From Bolinopsis microptera (taxonomy: Eukaryota > Ctenophora > Tentaculata > Lobata > Bolinopsidae), in the NCBI RefSeq assembly GCF_026151205.1, contig NC_087081.1:15488837-15552836 (forward strand): a stretch of 64,000 nt of DNA, read 5' to 3'. A model generated the notes under the pieces. It did not search any database. It was not told the DNA's origin and worked only from the letters and a program-made list of their open reading frames with translations. A program made the position numbers and the translations under genes. Numbering within the stretch: the first letter of the stretch is position 1; each line of letters starts with the position of its first letter. Positions 8,211 through 10,233 of this stretch are shown piece by piece.

Positions 8211-10165
8211 TAACTCCGTCCCTCACTCCTCATTAATCCTGCTGATATCCTCAGGGTAATTGTTATCAGTAAACTTTATGGTCGTGTCACTCCTATAACT
8301 CCGTCCCTCAACCCTCATTAATCCTGCTGATATCCTCAGGGCAATTGTTATCAGTAAACTTTATGGTCGTGTCACTCCTATAACTCCGTCCCTCACCCCC
8401 CATTAATCCTGATGATATCCTCAGGGTAATTGTTATCAGTAAACTTTATGGTCGTGTCACTCCTATAACCCCGTACCTCACCCCTCATTAATCCTGCTGA
8501 TATCCTCAGGGTAATTGTTATCAGTAAACTTTATGGTCGTGTCACTCCTATAACCCCGTACCTCACCCCTCATTAATCCTGCTGATATCCTCAGGGTAAT
8601 TGTTATCAGTAAACTTTATGGTCGCGTCACTCCTATAACTCCGTCCCTCACCCCTCATTAATCCTGCTGATATCCTCAGGGTAATTGTTATCAGTAAACT
8701 TTATGGTCGCGTCACTCCAATAACTCCGTCCCTCACCCCTCATCAATCCTGCTGATATCCTCAGGGTAATTGTTATCAGTAAACTTTATGGTCGTGTCAC
8801 TCCTATAACTCCGTCCCTCACCCCTCATTAATCCTGCTGATATCCTCAGGGCAATTGTTATCAGTAAACTTTATGGTCGTGTCACTCCTATAACTCCGTC
8901 CCTCACCCCTCATTAATCCTGCTGATATCCTCAGGGTAATTGTTATCAGTAAACTTTTTGGTCGTGTCACTCCTATAACTCCGTCCCTCACCCCTCATTA
9001 ATCCTGCTGATATCCTCAGGGCAATTGTTATCAGTAAACTTTATGGTCGTGTCACTCCTATAACTCCGTCCCTCACCCCTCATTAATCCTGCTGATATCC
9101 TCAGGGTAATTGTTATCAGTAAACTTTATGGTCGTGTCACTCCTATAACTCCGTCCCTCACCCCTCATTAATCCTGCTGATATCCTCAGGGTAATTGTTA
9201 TCAGTAAACTTTATGGTCGTGTCACTCCTATAACTCCGTCCCTCACCCCTCATTAATCCTGCTGATATCCTCAGGGCAATTGTTATCAGTAAACTTTATG
9301 GTCGTGTCACTCCTATAACTCCGTCCCTCACCCCCCATTAATCCTGCTGATATCCTCAGGGTAATTGTTATCAGTAAACTTTATGGTCGTGTCACTCCTA
9401 TAACTCCGTCCCTCACCCCTCATTAATCCTGCTGATATCCTCAGGGTAATTGTTATCAGTAAACTTTATGGTCGTGTCACTCCTATAACTCCGTCCCTCA
9501 CCCCTCATTAATCCTGCTGATATCCTCAGGGCAATTGTTAACAGTAACCTTTATGATCGTGTCACCCCTACAACTCCGTCCCTCACCCCCCATTAATCCT
9601 GCTGATATCCTCAGGGTAATTGTTATCAGTAAACTTTATGGTCGTGTCACTCCTATAACTCCGTCCCTCACCCCTCATTAATCCTGCTGATATCCTCAGG
9701 GCAATTGTTAACAGTAACCTTTATGATCGTGTCACTCCTATAACTCCGTCCCTCACCCCCATTAATCCTGCTGATATCCTCAGGGTAATTGTTATCAGTA
9801 AACTTTATGGTCGTGTCACTCCTATAACTCCGTCCCTCACCCCTCATTAATCCTGCTGATATCCTCAGGGTAATTGTTATCAGTAAACTTTTTGGTCGTG
9901 TCACTCCTATAACTCCGTCCCTCACCCCTCATTAATCCTGCTGATATCCTCAGGGCAATTGTTAACAGTAAACTTGATGGTCGTGTCACTCCTATAACTC
10001 CGTCCCTCACCCCTCATTAATCTTGCTGATATCCTCAGGGTAATTGTTATCAGTAAACTTTATGGTCGTGTCACTCCAATAACTCCGTCCCTCACCCCTC
10101 ATTAATCCTGCTGATATCCTCAGGGTAATTGTTATCAGTAAACTTTATGGTCGTGTCACTCCTAT
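8211..10165. repeat. 85-bp tandem satellite, 23 units
   Basis: The unit begins TAACTCCGTCCCTCACCCC and ends GTCGTGTCACTCCTA; the array length divided by 85 gives 23 units. Units differ by few substitutions, and one unit near 9755 is 84 bp. There are no unique spacers. Read on the minus strand, the last unit (10092-10165) forms the end of the reading frame of the SCLT1-like gene, so the rest of the array would lie in its 3' untranslated region or just beyond it. Confidence 0.95.
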
Positions 10166-10233
10166 CAGTGTGTGGTACTGGTGTGCTGGTAGCTTTACGG
10201 TTCTTGGCAGCACTTTTATCCTTCCTGGTGGAC
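10092..10233 (-). CDS. SCLT1-like gene, last exon running into the satellite
   Basis: After the acceptor CCACCCCCAG the frame reads [19 protein letters not shown], a basic and probably disordered tail. It then enters the first satellite unit and reads [21 protein letters not shown] before a TGA at 10092-10094. Choosing the 11184 donor makes this frame continuous. If the other donor were used the tail would instead end after about 30 residues, also inside the satellite. Confidence 0.55.

Follow-up and report, generated by a model that had tools for sequence, protein, structure and literature searches.

An 85-bp minisatellite whose first unit carries the stop codon of a plausibly SCLT1-like coiled-coil gene

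The window, by which we mean the whole 64,000-nucleotide stretch of Bolinopsis microptera DNA analysed here, carries on its minus strand a series of coiled-coil exons that belong to one gene, and a tandem array that begins inside the last coding exon of that gene. The features to which the argument refers are, in the order in which the gene is read:

20280..20712, minus strand: two further upstream coiled-coil exons, 20712-20612 and 20412-20280, ends approximate
17521..17601, minus strand: coiled-coil exon
17135..17307, minus strand: coiled-coil exon
16795..16894, minus strand: coiled-coil exon
11188..11566, minus strand: coiled-coil exon of the plausibly SCLT1-like gene
10769..10901, minus strand: penultimate coding exon; against copy B it shows 3 synonymous changes and no amino-acid change, against copy A none and 3
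10092..10233, minus strand: last exon, coding part, with the acceptor ...CCCCCAG/GTCCACC
10079..10163, minus strand: unit w01 of the array, with the last 23 codons, the TGA (10094-10092) and 13 bp more
8210..10163, minus strand (gene sense): minisatellite array of 23 units, from Tandem Repeats Finder and a unit split
8465..8804, minus strand: units w17-w20, which hold four base variants common to units of copies A, B and C
7752..8207, minus strand: 3' flank, common to copies A and C and partly to B
7869..7972, minus strand: two canonical AATAAA hexamers beyond the array, with starts at 7972 and 7874, where the 3' end probably lies

Another coiled-coil exon lies at about 17.9 kb. The six last exons, from 17601-17521 to 10233-10092, agree in their acceptor and donor phases, and when joined they form a single open frame of 1008 bases, closed by the TGA of unit w01. 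An earlier note on this DNA had overlooked the coding exon 10901-10769 between 11566-11188 and the last exon.

The label SCLT1-like, which that note had given to this probable cilium gene, is plausible; it rests on comparison with an unverified human SCLT1 sequence. A Smith-Waterman comparison with that human sequence scored 155, against 118 for the reversed query, and none of 300 heptad-keeping shuffles reached 155 (mean 106, s.d. 14, highest 154). The coiled-coil similarity is collinear with the C-terminal half of the human protein. The fine alignment is insecure, because BLASTP against the same sequence chose a register different from that of Smith-Waterman. Pfam searches of three exons returned weak coiled-coil matches below cut-off, and the best matches in PDB searches (E 0.021 and 0.031) were to unrelated proteins; neither database gave an SCLT1 model or relative. 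SCLT1 is described as a protein of the centriole distal appendages. The present gene differs from it in having about 100 more residues beyond the coil, the repeat-encoded tail included, which the best local alignment does not reach.

Elsewhere in the window, three coding blocks of similar sequence are repeated on the plus strand (26413-27090, 30737-31432 and 37706-38383), and the one tested, 26413-27090, matches Pfam Tectonin at 3.9e-51. Further arrays lie at 47305-47834, 49380-49630, 51267-52126, 54433-55328 and 55621-56015, and include 16 bp x 33, long AG/GA tracts and 23 bp x 17. One match in the whole window, which is tRNA-like, reaches the Rfam gathering score.

Tandem Repeats Finder describes the array at the end of the gene as a repeat of period 85 at 8208-10165, with 23.0 copies, 96% matches and a score of 3664. 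Split into units, it resolves into 23 head-to-tail copies over 1954 bp (8210-10163), 22 of them of 85 bp and one, at 9740-9823, of 84 bp, which is the unit that had been reported near 9755. In the sense of the gene the array starts inside the last coding exon, and unit w01 supplies 23 codons and the stop. The minus-strand frame thus bears out the central observation of the earlier note, that the last exon runs into a terminal 85-bp unit which gives the stop, and its estimate of about 20 terminal codons becomes a count of 23 codons and TGA in w01. Because the stop lies in this first unit, the number or length of the other units cannot change the protein, which is thereby shielded from changes in repeat number. 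We therefore reject an in-frame extension of the protein through array length, and the argument that 85 is not a multiple of 3, with an 84-bp unit as the exception, is irrelevant to the protein. Two short motifs recur along the array: of the 22 units beyond the stop, 19 contain CATAAA, and a donor-like GTGAG lies at the stop in unit w01 and, in the alignment, in the other units except w22.

Minisatellite units range roughly from 10 to 100 bp. Their arrays span 0.5 kb to several kb, according to PMC2820488. The array described here agrees with both figures (85 bp x 23, 1954 bp), and its copy number varies, with 23, 6, 1 and 1 units at four duplicate loci. A satellite DNA family would be expected to form large arrays or to occupy many loci; here, among the best-scoring candidates, 18 matches fall at four loci on one contig. 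The word satellite, used before, was too strong: this minisatellite belongs to a single gene and, with all copies counted, comprises about 31 units.

These four loci emerged from searches of the 264.65-Mb assembly (232 contigs). The last exon was found at four places, all on one contig and each with at least one unit, so the sequence that precedes the array in this exon, earlier called unique, has three more copies. The copy at 13.04 Mb (A) has 5.8 units by Tandem Repeats Finder and six in the unit split, the first of them shortened by a 17-bp deletion. It lacks the equivalent of window 11142-11446, much of exon e11.5. The copy at 8.92 Mb (B) has one unit and matches the window piecewise up to about 22.9 kb, and less evenly beyond; indels interrupt its exons e20.7, e20.4, e17.9 and e11.5, and an insertion of about 370 bp lies within its exon e16.9. 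The copy at 15.96 Mb (C) is limited to the last exon with its one unit and the flank downstream of it. The exons tested are all open in the window copy only. Given the coding sequence lost from A, and the indels in four exons and the insertion in a fifth in B, both are decayed pseudogenes, while C is a fragment. This contig has seen at least three duplications of the gene end. A processed retrocopy is unsupported as an account of C: its match extends 22 bp past the exon start into the intron and at its other end runs on into the downstream flank, and a comparison with nine window exons located just the last one in the C stretch.

A trypsin-like protease gene at 12835-13776 on the plus strand, in a large intron of the coiled-coil gene (Pfam Trypsin 5.7e-27 for 12835-13428), was duplicated together with the gene end in copies A and B. 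Copies A and C are nearly contiguous where the window has about 9 kb extra (the region of window 1-7751), reaching from 7752 down to the point, below the window start, at which sharing resumes. This arrangement suggests that sequence was inserted in the window copy or deleted from the others.

The pattern of substitutions differs along the gene. Between the window and B, synonymous changes in four upstream exons number 14 and amino-acid changes 2, a contrast that points to prolonged selection; this count omits e20.7, e20.4, e17.9 and e16.9, which have 0, 2, 3 and 6 mismatches against B and carry indels or the insertion. In the last exon the corresponding count against B and C, with copy A omitted, is 1 synonymous and 3 amino-acid changes (Fisher P 0.03 against the 14:2 upstream). 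The last exon thus gives no sign of purifying selection, and to judge from these sequence counts the repeat-encoded tail may be weakly constrained. The penultimate exon, 10901-10769, with its 0 synonymous and 3 amino-acid changes against A, behaves as a comparison with a pseudogene would. Exon e16.9 is not conserved above the noncoding level, with 6 of 100 positions differing from B and 173 of 2657 in noncoding sequence. When the three copies are aligned, exons are less often changed than noncoding sequence on the A and B sides (16/412 against 157/2210; P 0.013), and window-specific changes are marginally rarer in exons (6/412 against 71/2210; P 0.056).

Where does the unit come from? The earlier note had left open whether the gene tail seeded the repeat or a foreign repeat was captured as the C-terminus, and had proposed the genome search for the 85-bp unit. 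A two-unit query of the assembly gave 18 matches among the best-scoring candidates, every match lying either in the window array or in one of the three copies; only the best candidates were scored, and very diverged copies of the unit could be missed. No unit apart from this exon was thus found in the 264.65 Mb among those candidates, all four loci being copies of the exon, and none of the four exon copies found is free of the unit. The single unit of copy B is bounded by a direct repeat of 4 bp, ATAG, at a spacing of 85 bp. At least four matching bases at that spacing occur at 2.3% of breakpoints in the surrounding 6 kb, which makes the ATAG repeat mildly unlikely by chance. Because the unit was found only at copies of the exon, none of which lacks it, and because ATAG bounds it, seeding by the gene tail is favoured over foreign capture, and capture of a genome-wide satellite in particular is disfavoured, as none of the best-scoring candidates lies elsewhere in the assembly. 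As the repeat is found only at the tail of the gene and of its decayed duplicates, it most likely grew out of the gene tail.

We propose the following course of events. The 85 bp of the last exon that lie between two ATAG sequences, a stretch taking in the end of the coding sequence with its stop and the beginning of the 3' UTR, would have undergone tandem duplication, with replication slippage or unequal exchange as the probable mechanism, and the array would have expanded later. The exon-proximal unit would still act as coding tail and stop, and the other 22 units would lie in the 3' UTR or just beyond. The array would have been present before the gene end was duplicated, and would have contracted to one unit in B and C. 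To this model as a whole, including the precedence of the array over the duplications, we assign a probability of about 0.63.

The placing of the array before the duplications depends on the unit variants, since by structure alone a contraction to one unit is indistinguishable from a one-unit ancestor. Our first reading was indeed that B and C are plain one-unit ancestors, and we downgraded it after comparing the units. Counted over base variants, without indels, four of the eight distinct variants in the units of A, B and C are also among the 18 of the window units, a degree of sharing with chance probabilities of 0.0009, 0.0026 and 0.0039 under three transition weightings. The window units that carry the shared variants are all w17-w20, and in a post hoc test 4 of 3060 four-variant combinations were as tight. 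The sharing of these variants suggests that the array is probably older than the duplications, with B and C having since lost all but one unit; an exchange of sequence among the copies, by gene conversion, could also account for it.

The alternative that survives best, although we consider it unlikely, is that B and C keep an ancestral single unit and that the window and A lineages acquired the array afterwards, through one birth or two, the shared variants being due to convergence or gene conversion. Exactly one unit, with the same flanks, in two of the four copies fits this account, and so does the nearly star-shaped tree of the copies. Over 4544 aligned sites, 165 window-only, 122 A-only and 92 B-only changes join A with B; over 2210 noncoding sites, 71, 95 and 62 such changes join the window with B, and the pairwise noncoding differences are 133 for window and B, 157 for A and B and 166 for window and A. 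We accordingly dropped A and B as the closest pair, which holds over all aligned sites whereas noncoding sites put the window and B closest. When all four copies are compared, 271 clean columns contain one 2:2 site, with the window and C against A and B, and give a near-star tree. No unit-free allele, and none that certainly precedes the array, is present among the four exon copies. Against an ancestor with one unit stand the four of eight A/B/C unit base variants that recur in window units (P 0.0009-0.0039), and the arrays of the window and A, which agree in unit and register, so that independent births would have had to coincide.

Part of the window-only excess falls in nested plus-strand ORFs. 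One of these, at 15024-16247 on the plus strand, lies in the same large intron as the trypsin-like gene and is unusually rich in window-specific changes: over 1097 sites, lineage-specific changes number 67 in the window, 15 in A and 26 in B, and the changed codons, synonymous and amino-acid, are 17 and 42 in the window, 8 and 5 in A, and 9 and 15 in B.

If the AATAAA hexamers at 7972 and 7874 mark the end of the message, the gene-tail minisatellite may extend its 3' UTR, about 0.25 kb without the array, to about 2.1 kb, and array length alters the distance between the stop and these hexamers. A different fate for the transcript, which we think improbable, is that the array is an intron, with GGG/GTGAGG at the stop in unit 1 as 5' splice site joined to a downstream TTTTCACAG/G, a splice that would replace the stop with another, short tail. 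The donor-like GTGAG does overlap the stop, and TTTTCACAG/G occurs in the 3' flank of all four copies; yet this is resemblance to a consensus only, and even unspliced the frame ends in a stop and is followed by two AATAAA. It is tempting to speculate further that the array is a length-adjustable gene end, whose copy number sets the end of the messenger or the removal of the stop by splicing, and that it helped the duplicates to spread. Were this so, and we give it equally little credence, the CATAAA in 19 of 22 downstream units and the GTGAG at the stop would be working parts, and the array would perhaps have aided the spread of the end of the gene as duplicates along the contig. The least probable reading, a foreign satellite or mobile repeat inserted in the exon to give a new C-terminus and stop, is compatible with a tail under little constraint and with 4-bp direct repeats around the unit, which could be a target-site duplication, but it is set against a unit absent elsewhere among the best-scoring candidates from the 264.65-Mb assembly and against four exon copies of which none is empty.

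In summary, the locus fits a known kind of minisatellite and an ordinary repeat birth, and does not constitute a new class of element. In 3' UTR VNTRs the array lies between the stop and the polyadenylation signal, and its length sets the length of the UTR. The array here would be placed likewise, but its first unit is coding and carries the stop. The birth of minisatellites through slippage or exchange between short flanking repeats was reportedly discussed by Haber and Louis in 1998 and by Taylor and Breden in 2000. PMC3389668 and PMC2820488 describe two models, one based on slippage at noncontiguous repeats, the other on duplication between direct repeats of 5-10 bp. Our locus resembles these models in its unit of tens of base pairs, its array of about 2 kb and its combination of one-unit and many-unit loci. 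A short direct repeat bounds the unit here too, but with 4 bp it is shorter than the published 5-10 bp and only mildly unlikely by chance. The locus also differs in that the one-unit loci are probably contractions rather than clean ancestors, and in that the unit contains the stop codon of the gene. It offers an example of the way coding sequence can give rise to a minisatellite, and because the gene, the unit and copies with 23, 6, 1 and 1 units share one contig, growth and contraction can be compared side by side.
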